A DNA stretch of 64,000 bases from NCBI GenBank assembly GCA_020435995.1, contig JAGQYO010000003.1, forward strand, positions 1 to 64,000, given 5' to 3'. Shown here one piece after another: positions 1,854-24,792 of this stretch. Origin of the DNA: Flavobacteriales bacterium (lineage in GTDB: Bacteria > Bacteroidota > Bacteroidia > Flavobacteriales_G > Salibacteraceae). The position numbers were made by a program, and so were the translations under genes. Numbering within the stretch: the first letter of the stretch is position 1; every line of letters begins with the position of its first letter. The notes beneath the pieces were generated by a model, which worked only from the letters and a program-made list of their open reading frames with translations, did no database searches and was not told the origin of the DNA.

Positions 1854-1890
1854 CTTTTTTTTAGAATTTTATTATAGCACACGTTACTAT

Positions 1891-2391: not shown

Positions 2392-2396
2392 AATCT

Positions 2397-3587: not shown

Positions 3588-3625
3588 CGATACTATTTCA
3601 AAAATTGAAACGTTCAGGGATAATA

Positions 3626-6255: not shown

Positions 6256-6270
6256 TTTTCTAAATCATAG

Positions 6271-6388: not shown

Positions 6389-6389
6389 A

Positions 6390-6461
6390 ATATCTGCTAT
6401 CAACAAATTCTTTAAAAGTTTGCTGAACAGATTTTTGTATGTCGTTTAATTCAAAATTCAT
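6390..6461 (-). pseudogene. truncated duplicate of the acyl-CoA dehydrogenase 5' end
   Basis: Bases 6400-6461 are identical to 6194-6255, which is the ATG and first 20 codons or so of the acyl-CoA dehydrogenase. Reading on, the fragment diverges after ...EFVD and stops a few codons later in repeat copy 5 (ATATTGAACGC). Upstream of the ATG the two copies are unrelated. It is a remnant of a duplication at the repeat, not a functional gene. Confidence 0.9.
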
Positions 6462-6547
6462 TATGATAAGCTTCCCGCTTTTAGTTTGTAGTTTTCAGAG
6501 TTATTCCTCGTTTTATTTTTTATTCTATTAACTAACAAATCGTTACT

Positions 6548-6949: not shown

Positions 6950-6963
6950 CTTTATTATTAAAT

Positions 6964-6997
6964 AAAAAAAGCTGGGACTCTTTTAAGCCCCAGCTTT
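6964..6997 (-). terminator. Rho-independent terminator after trpB2
   Basis: On the minus strand AAAGCTGGG and CCCAGCTTT form a stem, followed by a run of seven T. It lies 14 nt past the TrpB2 stop and upstream of the RidA-like gene, so transcripts may be partly separated here. Confidence 0.85.
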
Positions 6998-7010
6998 AAT
7001 CACTATTTAT

Positions 7011-8375: not shown

Positions 8376-8446
8376 AATCGAGCATTTTAAAGGGTTAATA
8401 AATCATTCGTACTCTACTTTTTGTTTTAATTGTTAATTCATTTATT

Positions 8447-8542
8447 GAATGCTGATGACGCAGATCGCTATAATCAAAAAGAGATTCGTTTATTCTTATT
8501 TTTTTATCCGCGATTCTCATAAGCATCAGTGTTATCGTGTTC
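8447..8542. repeat. intergenic palindromic repeat, copy 6
   Basis: Shorter, diverged copy (left arm GAATGCTGATGACGCAGATC, right arm ATCAGTGTTATCGTGTTC) in tandem with copy 7 between trpB2 and the HyuB gene. Confidence 0.85.
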
Positions 8543-8566
8543 TATCACTTTTCTGTTTGGATAATG

Positions 8567-8663
8567 GAACGCGGATGACGCAGATCTTTATGATCTAAAT
8601 ATGATTTGATTATTCTCATTTTTTTATCTGCGTTTATCATAACAATCAGCGTTATCTGTGTTC
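8567..8663. repeat. intergenic palindromic repeat, copy 7
   Basis: Copy of about 97 bp with left arm GAACGCGGATGACGCAGATC and right arm ATCAGCGTTATCTGTGTTC. It begins 6 nt after the HyuB stop codon (transcription runs right to left). Confidence 0.9.
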
Positions 8664-8669
8664 TATTTT

Positions 8670-10337
8670 TTATAAGCCATATTCGTTTACAGCTTGCTCT
8701 TTATCTATTATTTCGTTTTTTAAATCTTGTTCTACTGCTTCTCTATCTCTTTCTTTTGGATTTCCATAACCTCCACCACCACCAGCTATTTGATGATAAA
8801 TAGTGCCAGATGGAATGTTCTCCACTATATCTTTACTCATTGGCACATGCGTTTTTCCATCGGGATAAGTAAGGGTTATGCTATTTAACACGCTGCCTTT
8901 CCCACCAAAAAGTCCATAATTCGGTTCTACATCTCCATCACCAAACACAACCATTGTGGCATTATCTCCACCCATTTTAATCATGGTTTCAACGCCAAGT
9001 CCGCCCCTCCACTTTCCAACTCCGCCAGAATTTTGGAGGTATTCGTGTTTTAAAATCAAATGCGGAGTCTGTTGTTCGTACATTTCATAATCCTGATCCA
9101 ACAACCCGCCCGATGCGTCAATCATGCCTATATGATCATACCCGTCGTCACCTTCTAAGGCTCCAGAGCCGCCTTTCAATCCCATAAAACAGATATCGAC
9201 ATACTTCTCGCCCGTTCTTGGATGATCTCCTGTAAATAATGAACAGAGTAAATGATTCCAACCAGCGGTAACTCGGTGTGGCATGGCAGGACCCAGAGCT
9301 TTAAAAATGGAATCGGCTACTTGCGGACATAAGTGATTGCCGAATGTGGTGGCTTTGGGATAGGAGGCATTTAAAATCGTTCCTTCAGGTACGATGTAGG
9401 TCAATGGCCTGAGCATACCTTGGTTGTGAGGAATGTTGGGGTTGACCATTTGCAAAAACGTGAGTGTAATGGCCGAACATGAAGATGTATAAGTCCCGTT
9501 TACAAATCCATTGGTTTGTACCGATGTTTCTGAAAAATCAAAAGTGATATCCTCGTTATGGACAGTAATCTTTGCTTTTATTTCGAATTTGGAACCCGGG
9601 TGTTTACCGTCGTAATAAACCATGCTGCTGCCTTCATAAATTCCATTTGGTACCGAGGCAATTTCAGAACGCATCATGGTTTCGGTGCTGTTAAAAAGCT
9701 CTAGTTTATGTGCTTCATAGCACTCGATTCCATATTTAGAAACCAGAGCGTTGAGTCGTCTTTCACCCAAACTACAAGCACCTATCTGGGCTTTTATATC
9801 CTCTTGCACCATGGTGAGTCGGATGTTGGCAAAAATCAAATTCCAAACATCTTCTCTTAGCTTTCCTTTTTCGTAGAGTTTTACGGCGGGAATTCTCAAT
9901 GCTTCTTGCCAAACTTCGGTGGCGTTGGGGTTATAACCGCCCTGCACTGCTCCACCAATATCCGCCTGATGTCCTTTTGCTGCCGACCAGCCAATTAATG
10001 TTCCATCACAAAAAATGGGTTTGAATATGGCTACATCGTTGTTTTGGTTTCCCATGGAAAATACATCGTTGTGTATGATGACATCGCCTTGGAAAATATC
10101 ATCTCCATATTGGTCTAAAATAACCTTGCAAACAGGACCCAATGAAAAGCTCAAAATAGGAAGGTTCTCCGTTTGCTCCAGCATATTTCCCTCAGCGTCA
10201 TACAGTCCAGTAACAAAATCCTTAGCCTCACATAATATCGGTGAACGCGTCGTTTTTGTCAATGAAATACTCATTTCATCGGTAATAGACTTAAACGCGC
10301 GTTGGAATATGCTGAGTAATATTTTATCTATCTCCAT
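8670..10337 (-). CDS. hydantoinase B / acetone-carboxylase-type subunit (HyuB-like)
   Basis: 555-residue member of the HyuB family (N-methylhydantoinase B, 5-oxoprolinase C-half, acetone carboxylase AcxB, acetophenone carboxylase subunits). Recognisable segments are the N-terminal SITDEMSISLTKTTRSP, HNDVFSMGNQ and GHQADIGG with likely metal ligands, and the C-terminal AGGGGGYGNP. HyuA/HyuB pairs use ATP to activate amide or carbonyl substrates. Its partner is encoded just upstream (10484-12610). In the anaerobic indoleacetate pathway a HyuA/HyuB-like pair opens the oxindole ring amide. No third small subunit typical of acetone carboxylase is adjacent, so amide hydrolysis is favoured over carboxylation. 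Confidence 0.85.
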   Translation of the reverse strand: MEIDKILLSIFQRAFKSITDEMSISLTKTTRSPILCEAKDFVTGLYDAEGNMLEQTENLPILSFSLGPVCKVILDQYGDDIFQGDVIIHNDVFSMGNQNNDVAIFKPIFCDGTLIGWSAAKGHQADIGGAVQGGYNPNATEVWQEALRIPAVKLYEKGKLREDVWNLIFANIRLTMVQEDIKAQIGACSLGERRLNALVSKYGIECYEAHKLELFNSTETMMRSEIASVPNGIYEGSSMVYYDGKHPGSKFEIKAKITVHNEDITFDFSETSVQTNGFVNGTYTSSCSAITLTFLQMVNPNIPHNQGMLRPLTYIVPEGTILNASYPKATTFGNHLCPQVADSIFKALGPAMPHRVTAGWNHLLCSLFTGDHPRTGEKYVDICFMGLKGGSGALEGDDGYDHIGMIDASGGLLDQDYEMYEQQTPHLILKHEYLQNSGGVGKWRGGLGVETMIKMGGDNATMVVFGDGDVEPNYGLFGGKGSVLNSITLTYPDGKTHVPMSKDIVENIPSGTIYHQIAGGGGGYGNPKERDREAVEQDLKNEIIDKEQAVNEYGL

Positions 10338-10375: not shown

Positions 10376-10492
10376 GAACGCTGGTAACGCGGATCTTTAT
10401 GATTAAAAAATGATTTACTCTCGCTCATATTTCTAATTCTGTGGTTTTCTTTTTATCTACATTCATCATAACTAACAGTGCCATCAGCATTC
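10376..10492. repeat. intergenic palindromic repeat, copy 8
   Basis: Copy between HyuA and HyuB genes, left arm GAACGCTGGTAACGCGGATC, right arm CAGTGCCATCAGCATTCC. The right arm overlaps the HyuA 3' end: GAATGCTGA on the minus strand encodes Glu-Cys-stop. Confidence 0.88.
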
Positions 10493-12610
10493 CATCTTTT
10501 CTGCGTTCATAGTATTAAATCCATTGGGCATCAGATGTCTGTTATAGACAATAAAGGCACCTCCAATTCCTGTTTCGCAATTGTAACTTTCGCCTAGAAA
10601 AACGGTTGTATTGACCTGCTCAATAATGGCTGGCCCACATATTTTGAAATTGCTTTTTAAAATATCGCCGTCATATACAGGCACCTCTTGCATGACATCA
10701 TTCTCAGGCACGTAAGCTCTTCTTCTACCTTTTAAGGCTTCTTCAAGCGTTTCGACCCCCTTTGTGATATTTCCAGATAATGAATGTGGCTTTTCTGTAA
10801 TTCCTATGGCTCTAAAACGAAGGTTGATCAATTCCAATTCGGTTCCTTCTTCTTTGAGTTCGTAGCCAAATTGTCGGTTATGCTCTTTGTGAAATTTCTC
10901 TTTTATACTCTCTAAATCAAAGTTGAAAAGATCGTCCATACTCACTTCTAGGGGTACTTCGTGATATTGGCCGATGTATCGCAAATCGAGCGAGGGCACA
11001 TATTCTATTTTGTCTTCTGCAATGCCTTCGGCGAGTAAGGTACTGATTGCCTCAGCTTTCATTTCATCGTACAATTTCAAAAAATCACCTCTATTGATTT
11101 CTGAAAGCTTGCTCAAATAAGATCGTACATAATCGTGTTTGAGATCGCCGAGAAGCATACCAGCCGCACAAAAAATAGGTGCGACACTCGGTACCACAAA
11201 CATTGGAATCTCCAGTTCACGGCAAATCTCGCCAGCATGAATTGAACCAGCCCCACCGGCGCAAATCATCAAAAACTCTCTTGGATCGTAGCCTCTTTCA
11301 ACCGAAACCTGACGTACACCTTGAGCCATGTTCATATTGATTACTCGGTACATTCCGGCGGCTGCTCCTTCGGCACTTAAGCCCAGTGGCTCTCCAAGTA
11401 CCTTTTCGGTTGTCTTTAACGCTTTATCCTTGTTGAGTTTGTACTTCCCGCCCGCAAAAAAATCGGGATCGAGGTAGCCTAAAATTAGGTCGGCATCAGT
11501 ACAGGCGGGTTTTTCACCTCCTCGGTCATAGGAAATTGGCCCAGGCAATGAACCCGCACTTTTGGGGCCCATTTGGAGCAATCCGCCCTTATCTACCCAA
11601 CCAATACTTCCGCCACCAGCCCCTATGGTAATGATATCTAAGGTGGGAAGTGCGACACGGTATCTGTCAATATCAGCATCGGTACTGGTTACACATTGCT
11701 TGTTTACAACCAAGGAAGCATCGAAACTTGTGCCTCCCATATCCATGGTAATGCAGTTATCATATCCCAATAAATTGGCGTAATAAGCTCCCGCAATAGG
11801 TGCGGCAGCAGGGCCCGAAAGCACAGTCACCGCCGCAATTTTTCCAGCAATTTCGGGTGTCACAACTCCCCCATTGGATTGCATGATCATCAGTTTACCG
11901 TTGAAATTGAGTTTTTTTAGTTTTCCTAAAAGCGATTTTAAATAGGAGTCAACCACCACACCGATGTAGGCATTTACCACCGTGGTGCTCACCCTTTCGT
12001 AAAATCGAACAGAAGGTAAAACTTCGTACGACGCTGAGATAAAAATATCGGGAAGGGCTTTTCTCAAGTATTCTGTCGCTTGTTTTTCATTCTCATTGTT
12101 GAGGTAAGAATTCATAAAACAAAGGGCTACAGCGCGAACCTCTTCCGCCTTTAATATGGAAATAATGGCATCCAATTCAGCGAAATCAACTCCTTGTAAC
12201 ACTTTTCCTTCGGCATCAATTCTTTCGTCGATGGTATATCGCAAATACCGAGGAACCAGTGGAACAACATTTTTGTAGTGGTTGTTATAACGTTCCTCTC
12301 GAATACCTCGTCGCATTTCAAGCGCATCTCGAAATCCTTTGGTTGTAATGAGGGCAGTTTTAGCACCGCCATGAGTGAGGAGGGCATTAGTGGCTACCGT
12401 AGTTCCGTGAACAATGGTGTCGATATGATCAATAAAATCGGCAACTGGTAGGTTAAGTTTTTCGGCAACTTCTTTTAAACCTGTGATAAATCCTTCGGAA
12501 GAATCTTCTGGTGTTGATAGTGTTTTGTGGACAATAGAATAACCATCGTCCGCTACCAAAAAGAAGTCGGTAAACGTTCCTCCTACATCGATGCCAATTT
12601 TGTATTTCAT
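10484..12610 (-). CDS. hydantoinase A / acetone-carboxylase-type subunit (HyuA-like)
   Basis: 708-residue ASKHA-fold ATPase of the HyuA/5-oxoprolinase/acetone carboxylase alpha family. The phosphate loop is GIDVGGTFTD at residues 5-14. HGTTVATNALL, TVLSGPAAAP, MDMGGTSFD and IGAGGGSI follow in the family order, with a C-terminal domain (about 500-700) ending near FLGES. It likely phosphorylates an amide or enol substrate that HyuB then processes. With HyuB it may hydrolyse a lactam ring in an indole-type pathway; hydantoin, oxoproline or ketone carboxylation are alternatives. The C-terminal Glu-Cys and stop are formed by repeat copy 8. Repeat copy 9 lies 13 nt upstream of the start. Confidence 0.87.
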   Translation of the reverse strand: MKYKIGIDVGGTFTDFFLVADDGYSIVHKTLSTPEDSSEGFITGLKEVAEKLNLPVADFIDHIDTIVHGTTVATNALLTHGGAKTALITTKGFRDALEMRRGIREERYNNHYKNVVPLVPRYLRYTIDERIDAEGKVLQGVDFAELDAIISILKAEEVRAVALCFMNSYLNNENEKQATEYLRKALPDIFISASYEVLPSVRFYERVSTTVVNAYIGVVVDSYLKSLLGKLKKLNFNGKLMIMQSNGGVVTPEIAGKIAAVTVLSGPAAAPIAGAYYANLLGYDNCITMDMGGTSFDASLVVNKQCVTSTDADIDRYRVALPTLDIITIGAGGGSIGWVDKGGLLQMGPKSAGSLPGPISYDRGGEKPACTDADLILGYLDPDFFAGGKYKLNKDKALKTTEKVLGEPLGLSAEGAAAGMYRVINMNMAQGVRQVSVERGYDPREFLMICAGGAGSIHAGEICRELEIPMFVVPSVAPIFCAAGMLLGDLKHDYVRSYLSKLSEINRGDFLKLYDEMKAEAISTLLAEGIAEDKIEYVPSLDLRYIGQYHEVPLEVSMDDLFNFDLESIKEKFHKEHNRQFGYELKEEGTELELINLRFRAIGITEKPHSLSGNITKGVETLEEALKGRRRAYVPENDVMQEVPVYDGDILKSNFKICGPAIIEQVNTTVFLGESYNCETGIGGAFIVYNRHLMPNGFNTMNAEKMEC

Positions 12611-12824: not shown

Positions 12825-14843
12825 TTAAGAATGCTTAAACTCTGCTTTTGCCCTAGGGCCATTTTCCAAGAAATTATTTAACCCTACCCGCATATCCTCA
12901 GTGAGAATACACTCTCCAAATAGTTTAGATTCTAGCTCAAGTGCCTCTTCTAGCGGTAGTTTTATTCCTTCATAAATTGCTCGGTTCATGATCTCGTCAA
13001 TCTTCTTACTCAAATGCCCAATGTTTATCTCTTTTGGGCTCAAATTTTCAGCGCTTCCACCTTTCATAAAATCTCTTGGTTCCACTTCTCCGTTTACCAA
13101 TTGTTTGGCAAATGCCACGGCTCCTTCAATCAAATCCCCTTCGATTTCGCGATCTACCAGTCCAATTTCAGAAGCTTCGGCACCAGAAATGGGTCTTGCA
13201 GTTCTTAGTATTTCTGCGGCTATATCAACACCAACCAACCTTGGGAGTCGCTGAGTACCACCCGCTCCGGGAATAAAGCCTAGGTTAACTTCTGGCTGGC
13301 AAGCAACAACCGGTAACCCTTTTTTGGCCACGCGAGCCGTACAAGTAATGGCCAATTCGTTTCCACCGCCAAACGCAAATCCATTTAACGCACAAACTGT
13401 AGGTTTTTTACACTTTTCGATGGTGTTGATTAGCTGCTGGAAGGTGTGCGAATTGTTGTAGCCCTCTTCGGGTGTTTTTAATGCCGCGAGCATATTGATA
13501 TCCGCACCTGAAACAAAAGCCTTGGTTCCAAATCCAGTAATGACAATTCCGTCCACACTCGCATCGTTTTCGGCAATTTCAATTTCGGCTTTCAACTCTG
13601 TAAGTACACCGAGGTTCAAGGCATTCAGCACCTTGGGTCTTCTAATGGTGAGTACAGAAATATTGTCTCTTTTTTTATGGATGATTCTCGAAATTTTCCA
13701 TCCTCCATCGGACTTTGCTTTATCTAAAGATTTAGGAAATGGGAAATCGGTGTGTTCTGCGCACCACTCTTTAACTAAGGCATGTGCCTCATCAATTCCG
13801 ATTTTATTCATGAGGGTAAACGGTGCAGCAATTACCAACGCTATTTCCGTAGCCATGTCTAGGTCATCTACCGAGGTTATACCCAAATCAATAATGTAGC
13901 AACACAAGGCGAAATAACCTCCAAGAAATTGTTTTCTCAATACCTCAGCTTTTGCCGGGTCAACTTCTACTTCTTCACCTCTTTTGGCCGTATCCCATGC
14001 AGTACGATTGGCTACAGCTTGTTGCAAGAGTTTGGGCGAACGAAACCACTGGATATGTGTTTCGCGCATTTCTTCCAGCCCGTGATTGGTAATTGGATTT
14101 CCACCAGTGAGGTTTAAAGCCGTAAATGGTCCAACTCCTTGATGAAGTGTTTTTCTGGCGATGGCATCAATCTCCTTTACAGTTCCATATCCTTTTTCTA
14201 AACACAGAATTGCTAATTCACACAGTCCTTCAAAAATAGGATCGATGGCGTAGCCATAAGAACTAGCTACTTCAATAGGCACCTTTCCAATTGCTTCGTA
14301 AAACCCAAGTAAATCTGCTGTAATTTGTGGGTCGGTGTCTTTTCCTGGCACCACTTCAACAACTGGATTTCGCTCTGCTGGAAAAAAGTAATGGGTAACC
14401 AAACATCTACTCTTGTTGGCAATATTTCTGAAAATAACTTCGGGTTGCATGTGTGATGAGTTGGACAAAAACAGGCATGAATCATCAGTTAAGGCTTCTA
14501 CTTGTTTGAAAATAATATCCTTAATTTTTCCGTCTTCAGTAGCGGCTTCGAGTACCACATTCGATCCCCTGATGGCATCATAGTTCGAGGTGTAGGTAAT
14601 GCTATTTCGCATGGTGTCGGCCATTTGCTTTTTAAAAGCGCCTGACTCTTCACCTTTGCTAATCTTTTTTTCAATTTTGGCTTTAGCCGCGGCCAGAGCA
14701 TCTTCTGAAATATCTACTATTACAAATTCAACATTGTTTTTCCAAAATACTTTAGCGAAGTGCAAACAAATATCTGGACCAATTTGCCCTGCGCCAATAA
14801 CCGATAACTTGGAAATGTTTAAGTTTTTATAATGGTATGCCAT
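12825..14843 (-). CDS. 3-hydroxyacyl-CoA dehydrogenase / enoyl-CoA hydratase fusion
   Basis: 672-residue bifunctional protein with the dehydrogenase first (Rossmann motif GAGQIGPD near residue 17, catalytic His in LVTHYFFP) and a crotonase domain from about residue 390. Both crotonase glutamates are present, in FAFGGGNELAI and QPEVNLGFIPGAGGTQ. This order is the reverse of FadB/MFE-1 and resembles archaeal 3-hydroxyacyl-CoA dehydrogenase/hydratase fusions. It would hydrate an enoyl-CoA and oxidise the 3-hydroxyacyl-CoA, giving the thiolase substrate. It is the only hydratase and 3-hydroxyacyl-CoA dehydrogenase in the cluster, so it could also take the ring-derived dienoyl-CoA, but that is not supported by any specific motif. 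Confidence 0.88.
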   Translation of the reverse strand: MAYHYKNLNISKLSVIGAGQIGPDICLHFAKVFWKNNVEFVIVDISEDALAAAKAKIEKKISKGEESGAFKKQMADTMRNSITYTSNYDAIRGSNVVLEAATEDGKIKDIIFKQVEALTDDSCLFLSNSSHMQPEVIFRNIANKSRCLVTHYFFPAERNPVVEVVPGKDTDPQITADLLGFYEAIGKVPIEVASSYGYAIDPIFEGLCELAILCLEKGYGTVKEIDAIARKTLHQGVGPFTALNLTGGNPITNHGLEEMRETHIQWFRSPKLLQQAVANRTAWDTAKRGEEVEVDPAKAEVLRKQFLGGYFALCCYIIDLGITSVDDLDMATEIALVIAAPFTLMNKIGIDEAHALVKEWCAEHTDFPFPKSLDKAKSDGGWKISRIIHKKRDNISVLTIRRPKVLNALNLGVLTELKAEIEIAENDASVDGIVITGFGTKAFVSGADINMLAALKTPEEGYNNSHTFQQLINTIEKCKKPTVCALNGFAFGGGNELAITCTARVAKKGLPVVACQPEVNLGFIPGAGGTQRLPRLVGVDIAAEILRTARPISGAEASEIGLVDREIEGDLIEGAVAFAKQLVNGEVEPRDFMKGGSAENLSPKEINIGHLSKKIDEIMNRAIYEGIKLPLEEALELESKLFGECILTEDMRVGLNNFLENGPRAKAEFKHS

Positions 14844-15000: not shown

Positions 15001-16893
15001 TTATTTCACGACTGCTGTCTTATTGAGTTTTGTGCCTGGCTCGGTATCGATACTTTCTGGTACTGAATTGGGTTTTTTCTTGTTGTTGACATAATACTTT
15101 TGGGCAATTATGGCAGCTCCAAGCGAAACACTATGTTGCGGCACTTCTACTATTTGAATGTCGGTGCCAAAGCGTTCGTTTAACAATGAAAGCAAATAAG
15201 GATGGTTATCAATTACACCACCAATCATAACCGTAGGTACATCTGGTAGCAATTTCATTTTGGCTACTTTGTTGGCAATAGACAAGTAAATTCCCTTTGA
15301 GATATCTTCAATTGAAATGCCGTCAAAAATCCAGTTCATGATTTCTGTTTTGGCAAAAACAGCACAAAAGCTATTAAGCTCTTTGCTGTTGTTGGACCTT
15401 GCCGCTAAATGGCTCATTTCCGATACTTCAATTTCGGCTCTGTCGGCAATTTCTGATAAAAACGATCCCGTACCCGCAGCACATTTGTCATTCATGTAGA
15501 AATTAGCCACCGCATTGTTTTCATCACAGTGAATTACTTTTATATCCTCTCCGCCAATATCTATAATGTTCTTCCTTCCTTTGATATCCCGTGATACCCC
15601 TGCGGCGGCACAATTAATCTCGGTTTTAACTATGTCGGATTCAATAAAATGTTTTCTACCGTAACCCGTAGCACAGCTGTATTTAATATCAAAATCGCTT
15701 TGTATGGCCTGCATAACCTGGCGATGTGCCAAGCGCTCCTTATTGAGAGTTTGAAGGGTGTACCTGAATACTACATTTTGTTTTTCGTCAATCACCGTAA
15801 ACTTGATGTAGGCCGAACCTAAATCAACACCGAGAAAACAATCTCCACCTTGATAAACTACCGAAGATTTTTTGTCTTTAACGATACCCTTCTTAATAAT
15901 ACCTCGGCTAAAAGAACCTGCTGCTCCCGGAATTCTTGAAGAAATATTTTTATTGGTCATGGCTTTCACCATATTGGTAAATGCCAGATTGAGCGAGGTT
16001 CTTACATAGTGTTTTTTTCCATATTCAACTATTTTACCGTTGAAATAGTCAATTTCGGTTTGTCGGTTATTAATCACGTCTCCAGCAAGCGATGGAAAAT
16101 GGTTTCCGCCTTTGCGGAGGTACCGCATACATTGGCGAATAAAATCATCGGGAAAACGAATTTTTTCAGCCTCAGCTACCAAAACAGCTTCACTTATGAT
16201 TTGTTCAATTAGCTCAACGGTATCGGGATCGGCCATTGCCTCGGCCATGGTGAGCCTTCCCACTCCGCACAAGGCGCTTAGTGAGGAATTGAGAATTGTT
16301 TTTTCCCAACTTCTTTTTAGAATTTCAAACGAATCGATTGATTTGGTTAACAGCCCCACATCGGTGAGGTATTTAGCAAATTCCTTGGCCTCTTCGCTTT
16401 TGTTGTCATCAATAGAACCGATGTAGTTTGGCGGAGTAAAAAAGGTGACGTTCACTACATTTGGAGCAGATAGATTGCCCGCGTAATTGACCACCATTCG
16501 CAGTACCCTATCGCTTCCAAAAATCGGAATCAAAAGCTCTTCCACATCAATCCCATTCTGGGCAGAAACAATCGTTAAATCATCCTGTTTGAATTCTAAA
16601 GCTTCTTTTGCTGCGCTTTTAATTTGATAAGATTTAAGGGCAAAAACCAAAAAGTCCAAATCGAGCTTGGCCTTGGTCATTTCTTCAATGGTAGAATAGA
16701 TTTTGTCGAAGTAAGTAACCGACTCCATCTTTCCCTCCAGCTTGATGCCTTCGCTTTTTATCTGATTGAGTTTGATTTTGTTGCGCACACAAAGTGTAAC
16801 GTCACAGCCAGCCTCTTTCAACTTCACAGCCATGATCATTCCTACTGGACCTAATCCAACAATGGCAACTTTTATGTCTTTAGGGTTTCTCAT
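15001..16893 (-). CDS. ketopantoate-reductase-like dehydrogenase fused to BadF/BcrA-type activator ATPase
   Basis: A 630-residue fusion. Residues 1 to about 320 are a ketopantoate reductase (ApbA/PanE) family dehydrogenase: GLGPVG at 13-18, catalytic Lys198 in SWEKTILNS, and Glu280 in RQTEIDYFNG. Residues of about 350-610 are a BadF/BadG/BcrA/BcrD ATPase: GVDLGSAYIK, IDIGGED, Cys471 in NDKCAAGTG and Cys510 in SFCAVFAKTE, the Cys pair that holds a [4Fe-4S] cluster between two subunits. PanE-family enzymes include D-2-hydroxyacid (mandelate) dehydrogenases. A dehydrogenase making a 2-hydroxyacid joined to the activator of a 2-hydroxyacyl-CoA dehydratase would be coherent. It starts 2 nt after the BcrB-like gene. 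Confidence 0.85.
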   Translation of the reverse strand: MRNPKDIKVAIVGLGPVGMIMAVKLKEAGCDVTLCVRNKIKLNQIKSEGIKLEGKMESVTYFDKIYSTIEEMTKAKLDLDFLVFALKSYQIKSAAKEALEFKQDDLTIVSAQNGIDVEELLIPIFGSDRVLRMVVNYAGNLSAPNVVNVTFFTPPNYIGSIDDNKSEEAKEFAKYLTDVGLLTKSIDSFEILKRSWEKTILNSSLSALCGVGRLTMAEAMADPDTVELIEQIISEAVLVAEAEKIRFPDDFIRQCMRYLRKGGNHFPSLAGDVINNRQTEIDYFNGKIVEYGKKHYVRTSLNLAFTNMVKAMTNKNISSRIPGAAGSFSRGIIKKGIVKDKKSSVVYQGGDCFLGVDLGSAYIKFTVIDEKQNVVFRYTLQTLNKERLAHRQVMQAIQSDFDIKYSCATGYGRKHFIESDIVKTEINCAAAGVSRDIKGRKNIIDIGGEDIKVIHCDENNAVANFYMNDKCAAGTGSFLSEIADRAEIEVSEMSHLAARSNNSKELNSFCAVFAKTEIMNWIFDGISIEDISKGIYLSIANKVAKMKLLPDVPTVMIGGVIDNHPYLLSLLNERFGTDIQIVEVPQHSVSLGAAIIAQKYYVNNKKKPNSVPESIDTEPGTKLNKTAVVK

Positions 16894-16895
16894 AA

Positions 16896-18113
16896 TTAGG
16901 CCAGCACTTTTGCATCTTGAATTTGTTCAATGAATGTTTCGATTTTGGTTATAGACTGGCCTTCTGAGAAGAATCTTAAATCACATAAATCTCCTTCTAC
17001 AACCAAGGAAGGCACACCTGTCGTTTCTTTTAAGCGAAGCGGCATTCCAAATTTGGCATTGGAATTATTAAAGCACGTTTTTGAATCGTGGAATACAATT
17101 CCATCAATTTTATACTCTTTGAACCACTGGCTGAGCATTTTCATTTTGGCTTTTTCACTTAGATTAATAAAAATACCGGTGTAAGCTCTGGCAGTGGATT
17201 CAAAAGGATCGTTTTCATCAAATTGATCAAACACCCAACTGCTACAGTATGTAGAAGCTACCACTGCTGCTTGGTTTTGGTTAAAGAGATCACTCATCAT
17301 TCTGAGTTTTCCCCAAATAGGCATTCCTTCCCAAAATATTCTACAAGTTGCCTGCGGCAAAAAGCCCTTGTTGTTTTTCACCTTATCCTCGAGTTCAGCA
17401 AGTAAGGTGGTGTAGTAATCTATGGCTACCTGCGTACCTCGAAGCACCACAATAGGCCCCATGTGAATGGTGCCATCAAAGAAACTCAAGGGTGCATTCA
17501 TTGCGGTGGACGTTTTTAGCACTTTTTGCCACAGCAAGGTCGCTTCTTTACTCAACCTAACCGTTTCTTTAAACTTATCCAAGTCAAACTTTTGACCGCT
17601 CGCCTTCTCGCAAGCAGGAATCATTTTTTTAAATTGTTTTACTACTAAATCAACCTCATCCTGTGTTACTTCATTTAAATACCTTGGTGGTTGAATACCA
17701 ACGATTGGGCATTTAAAATGATCCGCATAAAAGGTAAACCAGTCTTCCACCTCACGGCATTGGTTTGTGTTGTACGCAATGAGATCTGGTGTAGGCACAC
17801 CGTCCATGTTATAATGTTTTTGAAGCGGTGTTTGATTCTTTAAAAACGAGCCAATATCGGCAGTTGTATAGGAACATACATGCCCCGAATAGCCACATTT
17901 TATAGCTTCTGGAATATAATCCATTGCGGTACGTGTGGCGCCCAATAGCGCACCATGGTTTTCTGGAAAATAAACCTCAAACCCAAAGGAGCGAAGTAAT
18001 TCGGCTGGGCCCACGCTGGTACACCAAGCAATCTTTTTTTCGCCTTTGCCCAGAGACCGGAAATAATTTCCCATAATCTCTTTCATTAAGTCTGTTGCCT
18101 CTATCTTATACAT
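16896..18113 (-). CDS. second BcrB-like / 2-hydroxyacyl-CoA dehydratase component D family protein
   Basis: 405-residue member of the 2-hydroxyglutaryl-CoA dehydratase D-component/BcrB family. It shares with the BcrB of this cluster the segment GPIVVLRGTQVAIDYY (GPINIGFRGTQEAVDYY there). Candidate cluster ligands are the Cys in GHVCSYTTADIG, the Cys in SKTCFNN and perhaps the Cys in GDLCDLRFF. Such proteins normally work as a pair of homologous subunits plus an activator ATPase. Here there is one subunit beside a fused activator (15001-16893) and a CoA ligase, with which it overlaps by 8 nt. It may use BcrC as partner, act as a homodimer, or be a dehydratase for a 2-hydroxyacyl-CoA. Its function is not established from sequence. 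Confidence 0.82.
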   Translation of the reverse strand: MYKIEATDLMKEIMGNYFRSLGKGEKKIAWCTSVGPAELLRSFGFEVYFPENHGALLGATRTAMDYIPEAIKCGYSGHVCSYTTADIGSFLKNQTPLQKHYNMDGVPTPDLIAYNTNQCREVEDWFTFYADHFKCPIVGIQPPRYLNEVTQDEVDLVVKQFKKMIPACEKASGQKFDLDKFKETVRLSKEATLLWQKVLKTSTAMNAPLSFFDGTIHMGPIVVLRGTQVAIDYYTTLLAELEDKVKNNKGFLPQATCRIFWEGMPIWGKLRMMSDLFNQNQAAVVASTYCSSWVFDQFDENDPFESTARAYTGIFINLSEKAKMKMLSQWFKEYKIDGIVFHDSKTCFNNSNAKFGMPLRLKETTGVPSLVVEGDLCDLRFFSEGQSITKIETFIEQIQDAKVLA

Positions 18114-19857
18114 TCTCCCTCACTTTTTTATGGGTATCAGCCAATTCAATCACATAAACTTCTTCCTCTACAGGTACGTCTCCACCATATAAATTGTGGA
18201 GATGAGCCTTGTATTTTTCAATCACATTTTTTGGAGCCATTTTCATAGAAGGTGTTAGCGTATTTGACTCCAATGACAGCTCATCCATGATGATGGCCGC
18301 CGATTTTACTTTTGAAAACTTCTGTTGAATGTTGTTGTTGGCGATTTGCATACAACCTGTCAAACATCTGCCGAGCTCATTTAAACTCCGTGGACAAAAA
18401 CACCCATCTTCAAGCGTCATTTCATAATCTGGTTTTTCCAGCAATCTTTTGTTTGGGAAAATAAGCGCCACAGGATGCTCCTCTCCGCTACCTGAAACTA
18501 TGGCGTATTGCACATAATGACATTTCAGTTCGATTTGTTTTTCCAAATCGGTTGGAATTACTTTTTCGCCATTGGAAAGTTTAAATATTCGGTCTTTTCT
18601 AGAAATTAGCTGCACGCCACTATCTGTAATTTTCCCCACGTCACCGGTGCGATACCAGCCATCCTCGGTAAAAACGCCAGCATTGGCCTCATCATTTTTG
18701 TAATATTCGAGCATTACATTAGGCCCCTTTACCTGTATTTCATCTTCATCGCCAATGCGTACACTTACACCAGGTATGGGCTTGCCTACCACTCCCGAAA
18801 TTCTTTTAACATTCGGATCGGTGAGGGTACAACACGGAGAAGTTTCGGTAAGCCCCCATCCTTCAATTACAGGGATATTTCTCTTTTGAAATTCGAGTGA
18901 TAGTTTTTCGGGAAGAGCTGCTGCCGCAGTAAAAATGAATTTTAATCCAGAATTGAAAAAGGTATCACTTGCCTCTTTGCTTGCCAAGGTTTTTTCATAA
19001 AGCGACTGATATACTTTGGGAACACTAAAAAACACCGTCGGTTTTACGAGTTTCCAGTTCTCAAAGATAGAATCGGGATCGCGGCCATAACTACTTTCGA
19101 GATAGTAGGTGGCGCCACTGTACAGCGCGGTAAACAATTCAAATATTCCTCCGAAACTGTGATGCCACGGCAGGTATGCCAAAAACCGATCATTTTCATT
19201 AACGTCCCATATCAGTTCTATAGCAGCTTGTTGCGATAAAATATTTTTGTGCATTAATTGGACGCATTTAGGCACACCCATTGTTCCCGATGTGTACATA
19301 TTCAGGCAAACCGCATTGGGGCTTATGTCCTCATCAAGGCACGACGGTTCGTCGATGGGCATGCTCTTTTGTAAAGCTGAAAATGGAATAAGGTTGTTGT
19401 ATCGATTATCTGTCACAGGATCGAAGTGAAAAATAGCTTTCAGTTGCTTCAGTTCGCCACCTATATTATCCATCTGGGGCTGACCCGCAACGGCCATCCA
19501 TTGCGCATCGGAATGGTTGATGAGCAATTCGGCAGTTTCTTGTTTGAAATGGGCAAATATGGGAACTGCAACTCCTCCAAAAGCCATAATAGCCAACTCG
19601 AGTTCTAACATTTCCAAGCGGTTTCGACTGAAAAGGATCATTTTATCTCCTTTTTTAAAGCCTAGATGCTTTAGGTTGTATGCAATTCGCTCAATATTCT
19701 GATAAAAAAAACTCCATTTTACACCCTCATAATCTCCATTGTCATTTTTTGCTTGAAAAACGTATTTATCATGAAACGATGCGACATTTCTTTTTAAGAA
19801 TAACGCAATGTTTGGGATAACTTCACCAAGTTGATGTTCCGAATTGAGTACTTCCAT
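18106..19857 (-). CDS. AMP-forming acyl-CoA synthetase (ligase)
   Basis: 583-residue ANL-superfamily acyl-CoA ligase. Motifs are the phosphate loop MYTSGTMGVPK, LPWHHSFGG, GWGLTETSP, and WYRTGDVGKI with RKDRIFKLSNGEKV near the hinge. It resembles long-chain acyl-CoA synthetases more than benzoate-CoA ligase in size. An unusual Cys-rich stretch, DGCFCPRSLNELGRCLTGC, lies near residue 500. It lies between bcrD and the BcrB-like gene in the same direction and overlaps the latter by 8 nt, so it probably activates the acid that enters this pathway. Substrate unknown; an aryl acid is inferred. Confidence 0.85.
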   Translation of the reverse strand: MEVLNSEHQLGEVIPNIALFLKRNVASFHDKYVFQAKNDNGDYEGVKWSFFYQNIERIAYNLKHLGFKKGDKMILFSRNRLEMLELELAIMAFGGVAVPIFAHFKQETAELLINHSDAQWMAVAGQPQMDNIGGELKQLKAIFHFDPVTDNRYNNLIPFSALQKSMPIDEPSCLDEDISPNAVCLNMYTSGTMGVPKCVQLMHKNILSQQAAIELIWDVNENDRFLAYLPWHHSFGGIFELFTALYSGATYYLESSYGRDPDSIFENWKLVKPTVFFSVPKVYQSLYEKTLASKEASDTFFNSGLKFIFTAAAALPEKLSLEFQKRNIPVIEGWGLTETSPCCTLTDPNVKRISGVVGKPIPGVSVRIGDEDEIQVKGPNVMLEYYKNDEANAGVFTEDGWYRTGDVGKITDSGVQLISRKDRIFKLSNGEKVIPTDLEKQIELKCHYVQYAIVSGSGEEHPVALIFPNKRLLEKPDYEMTLEDGCFCPRSLNELGRCLTGCMQIANNNIQQKFSKVKSAAIIMDELSLESNTLTPSMKMAPKNVIEKYKAHLHNLYGGDVPVEEEVYVIELADTHKKVRENV

Positions 19858-19921: not shown

Positions 19922-20779
19922 CTATGCCACTACAGCCGCCTCCTTTTCCTTCAATTTATAATACCTAAACCCTCCCCAAAGAGCGGCTCCAATGGCACCC
20001 GAATAGATGGCATCAGGATGAGAGGTAAATACCAAGTCTTCTTTTTTCTTTTCTTTAGAAAGTTCTTCAATGGCCTGAAGCATACCTATGTTCATACCCA
20101 TTCCGCCCACCAAGGCGATTGGCGATTCTGCCTTTAACGAACCCAATAATTTTACCACCCTAGCCGCAATTGAAAGATTAATTCCCTTTACAATATTTGG
20201 CGTAGAAAGTCCCTTCGATACGAGATTAATAACATCAGTTTCGGCAAGCACAGCACAGATTCCAGAAGGCACTTCAGGGTTGTCTGCTTTTAATGACATA
20301 GGGCCAACTTCTTCAATGGCCAAGCCCAAGTAGCGGGAAATATTTTCTATAAACTGACCTGAACCAGATGCACACTGTCCGGTCATTTTATAATCCATTA
20401 CTTTTCCTCGATGGTCAATTTTAATAGCCCGTACATATAGGCCTCCCATATCAACCACCGTTTTGGCATCTGGGGTAAAAAACTTACCACCGCGTGCGTG
20501 GGTTGTCATGCTGTAGAAGTGTCCTGTTTTTTTCTCAACCATTTCACCTTCACCCGTTGATGCTAAGTAGGCAATATCTTTTTTAAGGTTGAGATTGTTC
20601 CTTTTCAGCACTTCAGCAATCGTTTCAGAGGCTACATCTTTTGGGTCTCTTTTTCTGATTTTTTCCGTTTGCTTGTCCAGTAATTTATGATCTTCATTAA
20701 TGTTGTCGTAAGACATTAGAACAACTTTTACGTAGCTTCCTCCTACGTCAATTCCCATGGTGTATATCGAGTCTGTCAT
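19922..20779 (-). CDS. bcrD: benzoyl-CoA reductase subunit D (ATPase)
   Basis: 285-residue ASKHA ATPase of the BcrD/BadG type (Thauera BcrD is about 282). Residues and motifs typical of this subunit: GIDVGGSYVK (9-18), TGEGE (75-79), HFYSMTTHARG (87-97), Cys136 in QCASGSGQF, Cys175 in ICAVLAETDV, and a C-terminal HPDAIYSGAIGAALWGGFR. With BcrA it hydrolyses ATP to drive low-potential electrons from a [4Fe-4S] cluster to the BcrBC site. Fourth in the bcrCBAD order, 49 nt after bcrA. The HFYSMTTHARG and HPD segments make BcrD/BadG much more likely than a simple dehydratase activator. Confidence 0.9.
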   Translation of the reverse strand: MTDSIYTMGIDVGGSYVKVVLMSYDNINEDHKLLDKQTEKIRKRDPKDVASETIAEVLKRNNLNLKKDIAYLASTGEGEMVEKKTGHFYSMTTHARGGKFFTPDAKTVVDMGGLYVRAIKIDHRGKVMDYKMTGQCASGSGQFIENISRYLGLAIEEVGPMSLKADNPEVPSGICAVLAETDVINLVSKGLSTPNIVKGINLSIAARVVKLLGSLKAESPIALVGGMGMNIGMLQAIEELSKEKKKEDLVFTSHPDAIYSGAIGAALWGGFRYYKLKEKEAAVVA

Positions 20780-20828: not shown

Positions 20829-22250
20829 CTATGCTGTTACATCTTGAATTTTATTTTCTTTTGAAGGCAAATCCACTTTAATATTTCTTCTAGCGAACAT
20901 GGCTCCTCCGAGTGCTCCCATAAATATGGAATCGGTGTGTATGTTCATGGTGACTTCGCCATAAGAATCGGTGACCATTTGTTTTACATATTTCAATACA
21001 GCCTGATTTCTCGCAACACCTCCTGTGAAAGTAAACTCTTCTCTAACTCCACCCGAACGAGCGATCAACGACATGGCTCTTTGAACAATGGCCTTGTGCA
21101 AACCAGCCAAAATATTGGGACGTTTTTCACCGTTGTGTAACAACTCTTTTACCTCGGCACCAGCAAAAACAGTACAGGTAGAACAAATGGTGGTTTCCTT
21201 GTCCGCTTTCATTGCTTCGGGACCCAATTCGTTGAGTGAAATACCAAATTCATCGGCGATATAACCCAAATAGCGACCGCACCCCGCCGCACATCTATCA
21301 TTCATGTGGAAACTCGTAACCAATCCATGACTATCTACCTGAATGGCCTTGGTGTCCTGTCCTCCAATATCCAATACGGTTCGTGTTTTAGGGAAAATTG
21401 CATGAGCTCCAAAGGCATGACAAAGAATTTCAGATTTAATACAATCTTCGGGAAACGGAAGTAGGGCTCTACCGTAACCAGTGCCCACCATATTTGATAT
21501 GTGAATGTCCTGATCTGCTATTTCATCAATATGCGCTCGCAGGGTAGATTCAACATTTTTATAGTTGTCTTTTACGGCATTGAGTTCGGCGTAATACCAA
21601 TCTTCTTTTCCCTCTTCAATTTTTTGGTCGGCCAATCCGCCATATTTTTCATCCAATACCTGCATCGATTCATCAACCAGTTCTTTGAAATTGAATTTCA
21701 CCATTTCATTTTCAACTGGTGTAATACTCTTATCAAAAGCAAGCATGAGTGGTTCGAATAAGGATTTCTCGGCATTTTCAACCTCCACATTGTATCGCTC
21801 GCTTACAATATCTCTGAAAAACTGATTTTTAGAACCTAAATCTTCATTGACAAATTCATGTCTTATTTGTGGACGAATGTTTTCAATAATCATCTTCAAC
21901 TCCTTAACAATGTCAGCCTTGTTGTCGTAGGCAAAATCATTGACTGTTGCCAACAAGGTTTCTTCTAAGCTGTCCATCCTGCGTTTAAACTGCTGGTATT
22001 GAAATACACTTCTAATATCCTCCATGTATTTTTTAAACTCAGGTTTGCTGTCAATTTCCTTTTGCAAGCGTTGCGACAAAAGAGTAAACCGAGCGTCATA
22101 CACTGCTTCTTCACGTGCGATATCAGCGGCTACCTTGTAATTAGCTCTGGTGTTGGTAATTCCCCGTCCTATGATCTCATCTTTTTCATTTATGATAACT
22201 GCCTTAGAGGTAGTAGAGCCCAAATCAATTCCTAAATAATACTTTTCCAT
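20829..22250 (-). CDS. bcrA: benzoyl-CoA reductase subunit A (ATPase)
   Basis: 473-residue ASKHA ATPase of the BcrA/BadF type, some 35 residues longer than Thauera BcrA. The N-terminus GIDLGSTTSKAV (7-18) is followed by a long charged helical region (about 45-245) that separates the two halves as in BcrA, then TGYGR, LDIGGQDTKAI, Cys320 in NDRCAAGCGRY, and Cys359 in ICSTCTVFAGAEV. The Cys pair would hold the ATPase [4Fe-4S] cluster shared with BcrD. It lies between bcrB (25 nt) and bcrD. The reductase reduces benzoyl-CoA to cyclohexa-1,5-diene-1-carbonyl-CoA with two ATP per electron pair. Confidence 0.9.
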   Translation of the reverse strand: MEKYYLGIDLGSTTSKAVIINEKDEIIGRGITNTRANYKVAADIAREEAVYDARFTLLSQRLQKEIDSKPEFKKYMEDIRSVFQYQQFKRRMDSLEETLLATVNDFAYDNKADIVKELKMIIENIRPQIRHEFVNEDLGSKNQFFRDIVSERYNVEVENAEKSLFEPLMLAFDKSITPVENEMVKFNFKELVDESMQVLDEKYGGLADQKIEEGKEDWYYAELNAVKDNYKNVESTLRAHIDEIADQDIHISNMVGTGYGRALLPFPEDCIKSEILCHAFGAHAIFPKTRTVLDIGGQDTKAIQVDSHGLVTSFHMNDRCAAGCGRYLGYIADEFGISLNELGPEAMKADKETTICSTCTVFAGAEVKELLHNGEKRPNILAGLHKAIVQRAMSLIARSGGVREEFTFTGGVARNQAVLKYVKQMVTDSYGEVTMNIHTDSIFMGALGGAMFARRNIKVDLPSKENKIQDVTA

Positions 22251-22275: not shown

Positions 22276-23568
22276 TTATGCTGTTTCCATTTCTTTTTCC
22301 ATTTTCTTGCGCTGTTCAAGCATTTGGAAGTAAGATTCAAGCCTGTTTTTAATGTTTGAATAAGAGAAATATCGAGGATCAACCAAATCTGATTCGATAA
22401 ACCCCACAGGTACTTCTAGACTATCTTCAATTTCTCTCATCATGCCCAGTTGTCCAGCAGAAAAAGAATTACAACTCTTGATCGAATTGGTGACATAGCC
22501 ATCCGCGTCGTATTCAGTAATGCACTTTTTCAATAAATCGATTCGCTGCGGGATGTTCATGTTGGTGTAGCAGTTCATACAGTATTCGGCCAAGGCTTCA
22601 AGTGGCCGCTCTGGATCGTGTCTCCAACCCAAATCATATACACCACCCACTTTGGTATAAGAAGATGCCACGATTACAGCGCCCATGTCGTAGAATATTT
22701 TCCAAAACTCCCGGAAACTTGTCCAGTTTGGCGGCCCCTCAACAACAAGGCGGTATTTCTCCTCCTTCATTTCGCCTTCGGGCGTAATAGGCCCTAGTCC
22801 TTGTTCTATTCTAATATGGATTTCTTTCAACAATTCTTGGTAGTAATCAACCGCTTCTTGCGTACCTCTAAATCCAATATTGATGGGACCTATATAGTAT
22901 ACTCCGGCAAAATAGGCGTCGATGGGTGAAGGTTTGTGTTTGGTTGTTTGGAAAATCTCGTTGATCAAATCCTCGGCTTTAGCCGAAAGTTCAAGGTGTC
23001 TTTTGAGTTTGGCTTCGTCATATTTGATTCCGGTAACCTCCTCCATTTGCGGGATCACTTCTTCCTTGAATTGCTTGACCATGTATTGGGTCATTTCAGG
23101 AGTCATCTCTGCATTTTCTTGATAAGGAGTATGCACCATGATCACCTTAGCGTTGGGGTATTCTCTCTTTAAGGTTTCAAACCATTTTAAAAAGGTAAAA
23201 CACCCTGTATAACTCAATAACAGCACATCGGGTTCAGGAATTTTTTGACCAGTAGGACCAATATTTCCCTTCATCATCATACCTACATCGCATTTCACAT
23301 AAGTACAAACGTCTTCGGAGTGCGCATTTCTTTCAGCCTCTTTGATGTATGCCGCCGATTTCTTGCGCATGGCGCTTTGCAATGCATTGATCTCTGGATA
23401 AACTGGAAGCATATCGAAGGTTCTAATCAATTCGGATAAATTGCCAGGTATAAATGTGTAGCAGACTTTTTTACCTAATTCTTTAGCATTTGCCAAGTCG
23501 CTAAACAGTCCTTCGATCATCTCCTTTTGGAGGATCATACTTTTTTCTTTCTGTGCTTCTTTTGACAT
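22276..23568 (-). CDS. bcrB: benzoyl-CoA reductase subunit B
   Basis: 430-residue protein of the BcrB size (about 430) and family. Cys88 (EDVCTY), Cys93 or Cys126, and Cys366 (IKSCNSFS) are candidate [4Fe-4S] ligands, and GFRGTQEAVDYY is shared by the family. Together with BcrC it forms the substrate-reducing module where benzoyl-CoA is dearomatised. It follows bcrC by 39 nt and precedes bcrA by 25 nt. Homology to 2-hydroxyglutaryl-CoA dehydratase alpha subunits is expected; the neighbouring BcrA/BcrD pair decides in favour of benzoyl-CoA reductase. Confidence 0.9.
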   Translation of the reverse strand: MSKEAQKEKSMILQKEMIEGLFSDLANAKELGKKVCYTFIPGNLSELIRTFDMLPVYPEINALQSAMRKKSAAYIKEAERNAHSEDVCTYVKCDVGMMMKGNIGPTGQKIPEPDVLLLSYTGCFTFLKWFETLKREYPNAKVIMVHTPYQENAEMTPEMTQYMVKQFKEEVIPQMEEVTGIKYDEAKLKRHLELSAKAEDLINEIFQTTKHKPSPIDAYFAGVYYIGPINIGFRGTQEAVDYYQELLKEIHIRIEQGLGPITPEGEMKEEKYRLVVEGPPNWTSFREFWKIFYDMGAVIVASSYTKVGGVYDLGWRHDPERPLEALAEYCMNCYTNMNIPQRIDLLKKCITEYDADGYVTNSIKSCNSFSAGQLGMMREIEDSLEVPVGFIESDLVDPRYFSYSNIKNRLESYFQMLEQRKKMEKEMETA

Positions 23569-23607: not shown

Positions 23608-24792
23608 TTAAATGGATACCACCTCTTCGTTTTCCCATAATTTGATGGAGTCTGAGAAGGTGCCAACTTGTTCCTTTATTACTTTATATTGGTTGATGTT
23701 TTCGCTAAACTGGAAGGAGATATAACGAATACCCATTTTATCGAAGGCATTTTGGAAAATGGGCGCATCCAACAAACTGGGGTCGCAAAAACTCGCTGCG
23801 GCGAATATGACTCCATCAGCACCTCTATCCTTCACAATTTTAGCTAGGCGGTTTTCTTTTGGGTTGTGCACATCATATATAGAAGATGAATATTGACTTT
23901 GTTTAATATAAGATATGGCAATGGACTCAAGTGGATGATCTGTAGTGGCATCCACATCACCCAAAATCATTCGTGAGCCAAGCATATAATCATCATCTAC
24001 AACGTAGCATCCTGCCTCTTCAATAGCACGTATTAAACCCAAGGCGGGTTGCTCACAAAAAGCACCAGAAATAACTACCTTAATTTTGTCCTGAGGAACA
24101 CCAATATCTTCTTTGATGTGTTCGCACACCTGTTCCAATATAGCATTGTGCTCTTCTACTGGAATTACCGTACCGGCTCTTACCACACAATACACCTCTT
24201 CTATGGATAACCTCCAAGGGTAATCTTGTCTAATGCGGTATATAAAGTCAATCAATTGTCGGTTTCTGTTGTACAATTCTATAGAGTGATTAAGTGCTTC
24301 GATAGTCACCTCCACTCCATTCAACTCCTTGATGTACTTGAGTACATGTTGCATCTCTTGCTGATAAAACACGCCTCCTATTTCAGGCAGAAAGTTTTGT
24401 GGAAAATCCATGTACTTGACAAACTTTCCAATTTTCTGCTGTTTAAAAATACCCGACAGGTTTCGGATAACGTCACAAATTGAAGGGAAGATGAACCCAT
24501 CAATATGATCCAAATGCTTGTCTAAAGCAATTTCCATAATAGAACGTGGGATATGGCAGATATAAGACTGGTAATAGGCATCACCCTTTATAATCTGCTT
24601 AATATCCCCTCCTCCGAATATGCCGACAGGCATAGCGCCTGCAGCATGTATTATTTCTCTAGGAAAATAAATGGGCATATAGCCCACGAGCACACGGCCT
24701 TCTTTTTCTTCTTTCCAGTTTTTAGCCCGAGTAAAATTCAAATCAAAGGAAAGTTCCTTGCACTCTTGTAGAATTTCTTTTAGTTCTTTCAT
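23608..24792 (-). CDS. bcrC: benzoyl-CoA reductase subunit C
   Basis: 394-residue protein of BcrC size (Thauera 386). Family features: GYMPIYFPREIIHAAGAMPVG near 37-57, Cys79 (SYICHIPRS), Cys106 (FPSICDVIRNLSG) and Cys336 (AASFCDPSLLD), the three expected cluster ligands. It is the first gene of the minus-strand cluster and follows a 605-nt region shared with the divergent aquaporin gene, so the cluster promoter should lie there. Gene order bcrC-B-A-D matches Thauera. The enzyme is strictly anaerobic in known hosts and needs reduced ferredoxin. Confidence 0.9.
   Translation of the reverse strand: MKELKEILQECKELSFDLNFTRAKNWKEEKEGRVLVGYMPIYFPREIIHAAGAMPVGIFGGGDIKQIIKGDAYYQSYICHIPRSIMEIALDKHLDHIDGFIFPSICDVIRNLSGIFKQQKIGKFVKYMDFPQNFLPEIGGVFYQQEMQHVLKYIKELNGVEVTIEALNHSIELYNRNRQLIDFIYRIRQDYPWRLSIEEVYCVVRAGTVIPVEEHNAILEQVCEHIKEDIGVPQDKIKVVISGAFCEQPALGLIRAIEEAGCYVVDDDYMLGSRMILGDVDATTDHPLESIAISYIKQSQYSSSIYDVHNPKENRLAKIVKDRGADGVIFAAASFCDPSLLDAPIFQNAFDKMGIRYISFQFSENINQYKVIKEQVGTFSDSIKLWENEEVVSI

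Follow-up and report, generated by a model that had tools for sequence, protein, structure and literature searches.

The window analysed here (64,000 nucleotides of a Flavobacteriales bacterium, positions 1 to 64,000 of contig JAGQYO010000003.1) encodes on its reverse strand a protein, termed FUS (15001..16893 (-), 630 aa), in which a dehydrogenase appears to be joined to an activator ATPase. The question raised by this locus is whether the fusion is real and, if so, in which pathway the two halves would act as one polypeptide.

Domain structure and conservation of the fusion protein

FUS is a single open frame of 630 codons with an ATG start. Judged from Pfam and NCBIfam profiles, PDB relatives, conservation and an AlphaFold2 model, residues 8–314 are a predicted KPR/PanE-type (PanE/ApbA) D-2-hydroxyacid dehydrogenase, residues ~315–350 a linker and residues 354–597 a predicted BadF/HgdC-type acyl-CoA dehydratase activase (ATPase). 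The Pfam domains ApbA (9–160), ApbA_C (191–312) and BcrAD_BadFG (354–597; PF01869, 121.7 bits, cut-off 31.5) all scored far above their curated cut-offs, and the NCBIfam profiles TIGR00745 (apbA_panE, 2-dehydropantoate 2-reductase) and TIGR00241 (CoA_E_activ, acyl-CoA dehydratase activase; 155 bits, cut-off 125.4) were likewise exceeded; these profiles agree with the initial annotation in its pairing of a ketopantoate-reductase-like dehydrogenase with a BadF-type activase. A scan of 84,980 species genomes gave 107 relatives; the 80 best, which were retained, were nearly all full length (53–83% identity) and came mostly from Bacteroidota, with a few from Ignavibacteriota and single Acidobacteriota and Competibacteraceae MAGs. 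About 99 full-length homologues, mostly from Bacteroidota, were gathered; when 99 were aligned with the window protein, Lys198, Glu280, Cys471 and Cys510, which had been described as kept, were indeed invariant (100/100), as were Asn113, Asn202, Ser268, Asp357 and Ser360. Linker length was 34–43 residues (median 42, 78 scored). Because the homologues are full length, the residues invariant and the linker nearly constant in length, the fusion is real and old, and an assembly error or frameshift at the junction, named at the outset as what would undo the claim, was ruled out on the same grounds, relatives being encoded at 80 loci from other genomes. AlphaFold2 gave two well-folded domains (mean pLDDT 86) and a linker with pLDDT below 50 in two stretches (lowest 315–326 and 341–346); with a pTM of 0.55 the relative orientation of the halves is not fixed by the model. 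The initial annotation was aware of no such protein, and no account of a PanE-type dehydrogenase/activase fusion, or of the feeder route proposed below, was found in the open-access literature (subscription papers lay outside the search).

The nearest PDB sequences to the dehydrogenase half were 2ew2 (E. faecalis, putative), then the D-mandelate dehydrogenases 3wfi and 8wl1 with mutants of the latter (73–79 bits), whereas the E. coli-type ketopantoate reductase 1yjq reached 24 bits. Foldseek likewise placed D-mandelate dehydrogenase (5x20/3wfi) first; 8wl1 is annotated in the fold search as the enzyme of Lactobacillus brevis. The KPR fold, the Lys/Glu catalytic pair and the oxoacid-binding Asn/Ser of the PanE family are all present, and FUS has in common with 3wfi, 5x20 and 8wl1 the fold and all 2-oxoacid-binding residues, but it is only ~25% identical to them and is joined to an ATPase. 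The best interpretation of the half is a 2-oxoacid/(R)-2-hydroxyacid dehydrogenase, and that it makes a 2-hydroxyacid is well supported by sequence, since D-mandelate dehydrogenases are nearest and E. coli ketopantoate reductase is far. The (R) stereochemistry and the substrate side chain are predictions; on the similarity to D-mandelate dehydrogenase, aryl or branched 2-oxoacids may be the substrates. A genuine ketopantoate reductase for CoA biosynthesis is unlikely, given these relatives and the catabolic operon setting. The window's genome holds no other strong ApbA match (three weak ones were found), so FUS may moonlight in pantoate synthesis.

For the activase half, PDB sequence comparison gave HadI (4eht) and HgdC (1hux) as the nearest structures, the activators of 2-hydroxyisocaproyl- and 2-hydroxyglutaryl-CoA dehydratase, followed by MbdQ, the ATPase of an MBR-type benzoyl-CoA reductase. 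The BadF/BcrA ATPase fold scored above its curated cut-off, and the two cysteines for an inter-subunit [4Fe-4S] cluster are supplied by C471 and C510 (100/100). The activase motif GGQD reads GGED in all FUS homologues, with E449 invariant. This half may transfer electrons to a dehydratase in an ATP-dependent manner.

The neighbouring dehydratase subunit, ligase and reductase operon

Directly upstream of FUS, two bases away, lies the gene of a putative orphan alpha-type 2-hydroxyacyl-CoA dehydratase subunit of family PF06050, termed HGD (16896..18113 (-), 405 aa). Its nearest solved relative was HadB of (R)-2-hydroxyisocaproyl-CoA dehydratase (3o3m_A, 164 bits; MbdO 118, BzdO 72), which was also nearest by fold. 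C80, C119, C347, S33 and E51 were invariant in 60 sequences and represent the predicted cluster cysteines and the equivalents of HadB Ser37/Glu55; the HadB cluster cysteines C84 and C117 were matched in HGD and the third aligned with C347. Of 95 HGD sequences, 93–95 retained the HadB motifs W-x-T-S-V-x-P-x-E and PEN, and the BcrB proteins encoded at those loci differed at these positions, the general Glu excepted; HGD itself stayed below the BcrB and BzdO equivalog cut-offs (TIGR02260, 176 bits, cut-off 486; TIGR03191, 76 bits, cut-off 448). Because the HadB-type motifs and cysteines are kept and the BcrB motif is absent, HGD appears to be part of a dehydratase and not of a ring reductase. The target of the FUS activase half, expected to be an oxygen-sensitive dehydratase, would most likely be HGD. 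As a substitute for the molybdenum 4-hydroxybenzoyl-CoA reductase HGD is an unlikely candidate, Hcr-like genes adjoining the HGD unit in genome G386. MAGs of Competibacteraceae and Thermoanaerobaculia (L079, L072) carry the cassette as well, by gene transfer or mis-binning.

Known 2-hydroxyacyl-CoA dehydratases are alpha-beta heterodimers. No HadC-type beta subunit was found for HGD in the 12 genomes examined: the PF06050 set consisted of exactly BcrB, BcrC and HGD in 11 of them, which therefore have no HadC-type partner, and in the twelfth (G253) HGD was accompanied by one fragment and two subunits of the bzd type. The partner of HGD may be BcrC, a second copy of HGD, as in the homodimer of the double-cubane cluster protein DCCP, or another protein. 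BcrC is the sole beta-type PF06050 protein in the window's genome and is a possible shared partner. The DCCP/DCCP-R system (cluster protein and reductase) provides a precedent without a beta partner, a homodimeric PF06050 protein with its own activase, and its structure 7yyl was among the matches, although identity between HGD and DCCP is 14% and HadB is clearly the closer relative. The missing subunit makes it testable whether a second cluster protein is needed in radical dehydratases and whether another module can substitute.

The adjoining gene encodes LIG, an AMP-forming acyl-CoA ligase (18106..19857 (-), 583 aa, PF00501/PF23562) with a C-terminal domain of ~165 residues (window 18109–18612 (-)) that carries five invariant cysteines (C446, C486, C488, C498, C502). 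This module was invariant in 44/44 ligases, and in 40 other loci a free-standing five-cysteine protein of 147–181 aa (for example L031:9458-9940 and L095:9447-9911) adjoined HGD and FUS with its CxC-x9-CxxxC motif kept; the motif was not seen in weakly related ordinary ligases of the same genomes. Because the free domain conserves the cysteines and not the ligase residues, a metal or Fe-S role in the HGD–FUS unit is suggested. G253 seems to be without the domain, which is thus not indispensable in the unfused, dispersed form of the unit found there. At 29 loci an ADP-forming CoA ligase of ~709 residues took the usual place of LIG, and where LIG is replaced in this way the five-cysteine domain persists as the free protein. 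No benzoate-CoA ligase above the TIGR02262 cut-off was found in the window's genome or 19 other pathway genomes (n = 20), LIG itself staying below it; the CoA ester is therefore probably formed at a stage upstream of benzoyl-CoA, or LIG itself could be an unorthodox benzoate-CoA ligase.

The window operon opens with the four subunits of a class I benzoyl-CoA reductase, namely BcrC (23608..24792 (-), TIGR02263 above cut-off), BcrB (22276..23568 (-), TIGR02260 above cut-off), BcrA (20829..22250 (-), TIGR02259 438 bits, cut-off 578) and BcrD (19922..20779 (-), TIGR02261 above cut-off), the last two being ATPase subunits, and a 3-hydroxyacyl-CoA dehydrogenase/enoyl-CoA hydratase fusion for a beta-oxidation step (12825..14843 (-), Pfam) is also encoded. 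At related loci the order was BcrCBAD, ligase, HGD, FUS, thiolase, Had (TIGR03201), Oah (TIGR03200), Dch-like protein (TIGR03189), hydratase/dehydrogenase and KorAB, which is a complete class I benzoyl-CoA pathway with an extra HGD–FUS pair. In the window's genome a different contig encodes the thiolase, Had, Oah, Dch and KorAB, which adjoin an Hcr/xanthine-dehydrogenase-like enzyme and an indolepyruvate oxidoreductase subunit there. None of 34 other genomes of the same taxonomic family carried the fusion (0/34), which fits horizontal acquisition. Class I reductases (BcrABCD, BzdNOPQ, MbdNOPQ) have the families PF06050 and PF01869 in common with HGD and FUS, and a genuine BcrCBAD is present in the same operon. 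HGD and FUS come on top of it as additional paralogues that lack the BcrB motif, HGD sharing 28% identity with BcrB and FUS about 30% with BcrA.

Further genes were recorded at these loci. Downstream in the window (228–10337 and 10484–12610, both (-)) the genes resemble those of anaerobic indoleacetate degradation (hydantoinase A/B of the caprolactamase-like kind, a TrpB-like enzyme, a Rid protein, an acyl-CoA dehydrogenase, a BbsA/BbsB-like thiolase, a B12-binding protein and a methylmalonyl-CoA-mutase-like subunit), and parts of this set recur in L018, L021, L023, L026, L039, L051 and L083. Between BcrA and BcrD several loci encode a ~375-aa NAD-binding protein, saccharopine-dehydrogenase-like by eye (L125:13471-14589, L027:5011-6147, L079:3909-5066, L041:3914-5056, L062:5003-6127); the L125 copy had no NCBIfam match. 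A genome of the same phylum carries a bzd-type reductase set (L139:7590-11717; BcrC-, BcrB-, BcrD- and BcrA-like, in the order of BzdNOPQ) accompanied by a short ferredoxin-like protein (11844–12128) and an ADP-forming ligase.

Co-occurrence with the benzoyl-CoA pathway and unfused forms

Among 395 genomes of the class, the ring-opening hydrolase Oah was found in 50 and the fusion family (fusion or dehydrogenase half) in 53, including all of the former (50/50). Both halves, separate or fused, were present in 49 of the 50, and G680 showed only the dehydrogenase half at the cut-off used. The three genomes with the family and without Oah were G492 (92% complete), G509 (85%) and G568 (82%, only 37% identical). 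Fisher's test gave 2.7e-60 (395 genomes), a value that overstates independence because of relatedness and gene transfer. In a phylum sample of 395 genomes a bcr-type BcrB occurred in three, all with the fusion family (3/3), and all four fusion-family genomes had a benzoyl-CoA reductase (4/4), three of the bcr type and one (G253) of the bzd type. The fusion family is thus in every sampled Bacteroidota genome found with the benzoyl-CoA pathway. A function independent of ring reduction, first hinted at by G253, was rejected on account of its bzd-type reductase.

Unfused forms were found in a few genomes. At L110 (G077) two ORFs (328 and 263 codons), less than 20 bases apart and with a separate ATG, encode the halves, in G617 and G691 they are adjacent but separate genes, and at L121 of the single-contig genome G386 a 4-hydroxybenzoyl-CoA-reductase-like enzyme (HcrA profile 948 bits, cut-off 995) stands between dehydrogenase and activase in one operon. 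In G253 the genes for HGD, the activase and two copies of the dehydrogenase lie apart from one another. Of these stand-alone dehydrogenase copies (L122:9456-10409 and L123:9478-10434), one lies beside a Mo-enzyme FAD subunit and XdhC/MobA-like genes and the other adjoins a HisC-like aminotransferase, which may point to aromatic 2-oxoacids. The dehydrogenase and activase trees (quick trees, moderate support) both group the unfused copies, from which it follows that the two halves travelled together.

Proposed role of the fusion protein

LIG, HGD and FUS make up the same part set as the (R)-2-hydroxyisocaproyl-CoA dehydratase system of Clostridioides difficile (LdhA, HadA, HadI, HadBC) and the phenyllactyl-CoA dehydratase system of Clostridium sporogenes (FldH/FldA/FldI/FldBC), namely a D-2-hydroxyacid dehydrogenase, a CoA-ester former, an activase and a HadB-type subunit with cluster cysteines and Ser/Glu. 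In contrast to these systems, the FUS dehydrogenase belongs to the PanE family and is fused to the activase, a ligase stands in for the CoA transferase, the HadC/FldC beta subunit is absent and the unit is coupled to ring degradation, not to reductive amino acid fermentation. Some details of the Clostridium systems are given in PMC11971306 and PMC13416013; the latter discusses conversion of phenyllactyl-CoA via cinnamoyl-CoA to benzoyl-CoA as a hypothesis for a benzene degrader and the phenyllactyl-CoA dehydratase known from C. sporogenes, and does not describe a fusion of the FUS type.

The fusion, its conservation, the intact residues, the gene order and the strict co-occurrence with the pathway were established directly. 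With a probability of roughly 45%, FUS serves two functions in an (R)-2-hydroxyacyl-CoA dehydratase unit through which aryl-2-oxoacids enter the benzoyl-CoA pathway. Using NAD(P)H, the dehydrogenase half would reduce an aryl-2-oxoacid, most likely phenylpyruvate or perhaps 4-hydroxyphenylpyruvate, to the corresponding (R)-2-hydroxyacid, and LIG would convert the (R)-aryllactate to aryllactyl-CoA. The activase half, as a homodimer with one [4Fe-4S] cluster between the Cys471/Cys510 pairs, would then use ATP to inject an electron into HGD, which would dehydrate (R)-aryllactyl-CoA by a ketyl-radical mechanism to a cinnamoyl-type CoA ester. From this ester the hydratase/dehydrogenase and thiolase of the operon would release acetyl-CoA and (4-hydroxy)benzoyl-CoA; benzoyl-CoA would be reduced by the class I reductase of the operon, and in a tyrosine branch the 4-hydroxybenzoyl-CoA-reductase-like Mo enzyme would act before ring reduction. 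The cluster of G386, in which the unfused halves flank that enzyme, was counted in favour of this feeder route. The initial annotation had proposed that the protein makes a 2-hydroxyacid and activates the dehydratase of its CoA ester; this fits the evidence best (D-mandelate dehydrogenase relatives on one side, HadI/HgdC relatives on the other and a HadB-like HGD next door), and is supported in part only because we infer each catalytic activity, as well as the (R) stereochemistry, the substrate and HGD as partner. Several points count against the feeder route: an optional feeder would not be expected to be coupled so perfectly to the pathway, the HadC-type beta subunit is missing unless BcrC serves, and LIG could be a benzoate-CoA ligase of an unorthodox kind.

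The tight coupling would also suit a reductive removal of ring amino or hydroxyl groups from substituted benzoyl-CoA by HGD and the activase, with the dehydrogenase half serving a later oxo intermediate. The window operon runs on into the indoleacetate-like genes (hydantoinase A/B, BbsA/BbsB-like thiolase, acyl-CoA dehydrogenase, B12-dependent mutase), and anaerobic indoleacetate degradation would end in 2-aminobenzoyl-CoA. Most loci, however, keep HGD and FUS without these genes, 4-hydroxybenzoyl-CoA is provided for by separate Hcr-like molybdenum enzymes in G386 and by more distant ones in the window's genome, the HGD active-site motifs are of the HadB and not the BcrB type, and the 2-oxoacid reductase would be left without a natural role; such a function is judged improbable. 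HGD and FUS could instead be an accessory of the benzoyl-CoA reductase (electron delivery, reactivation or repair) with HGD paired to BcrC and no feeder, as the 50/50 co-occurrence, BcrC as the only beta subunit in the genomes examined and the conserved place of HGD–FUS between the reductase genes and Had/Oah/Dch would allow. This, too, has a low probability, as the well-studied reductases of Thauera and Rhodopseudomonas are not known to need HGD and FUS, the unit is dispersed and unfused in G253 beside a different (bzd-type) reductase, and a hydride-transferring dehydrogenase could not directly supply single electrons to a [4Fe-4S] activase.

The halves might also share an operon and not a substrate line, the dehydrogenase handling another 2-oxo or 3-oxo acid and the fusion only setting dosage. 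Unfused forms do exist (L110, L121, L122–L124) and AlphaFold2 leaves the orientation of the halves unfixed (pTM 0.55, linker pLDDT below 50), but both halves are present together in G253 and G386 though unfused, the unfused copies group together in the dehydrogenase tree and likewise in the activase tree, and the linker length is nearly fixed; this reading is placed just as low. Somewhat less remote, yet still unlikely, is a stricter form of the feeder route, in which an alpha-only HGD and an activase tethered to the substrate-making dehydrogenase, with the five-cysteine module (on the ligase or free) replacing the Fe-S relay of the beta subunit, are the obligate entrance to the Bacteroidota benzoyl-CoA pathway.

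Beyond what was first noted, the fusion is phylum-wide and tied to the benzoyl-CoA operon, with a dehydratase without beta subunit and a ligase with a five-cysteine domain. It is part of a conserved and undescribed form of the 2-hydroxyacyl-CoA dehydratase system that is linked to the benzoyl-CoA pathway, and suggests an undescribed anaerobic route by which aromatic rings, perhaps those of phenylalanine and tyrosine, reach ring reduction. If the feeder route is correct, it would explain the supply of benzoyl-CoA in many Bacteroidota without a canonical benzoate-CoA ligase and would take phenylalanine and tyrosine through a complete anaerobic oxidation via aryllactyl-CoA and cinnamoyl-CoA to ring reduction, and the fusion would couple the making of the substrate to the costly ATP-driven electron in one polypeptide.
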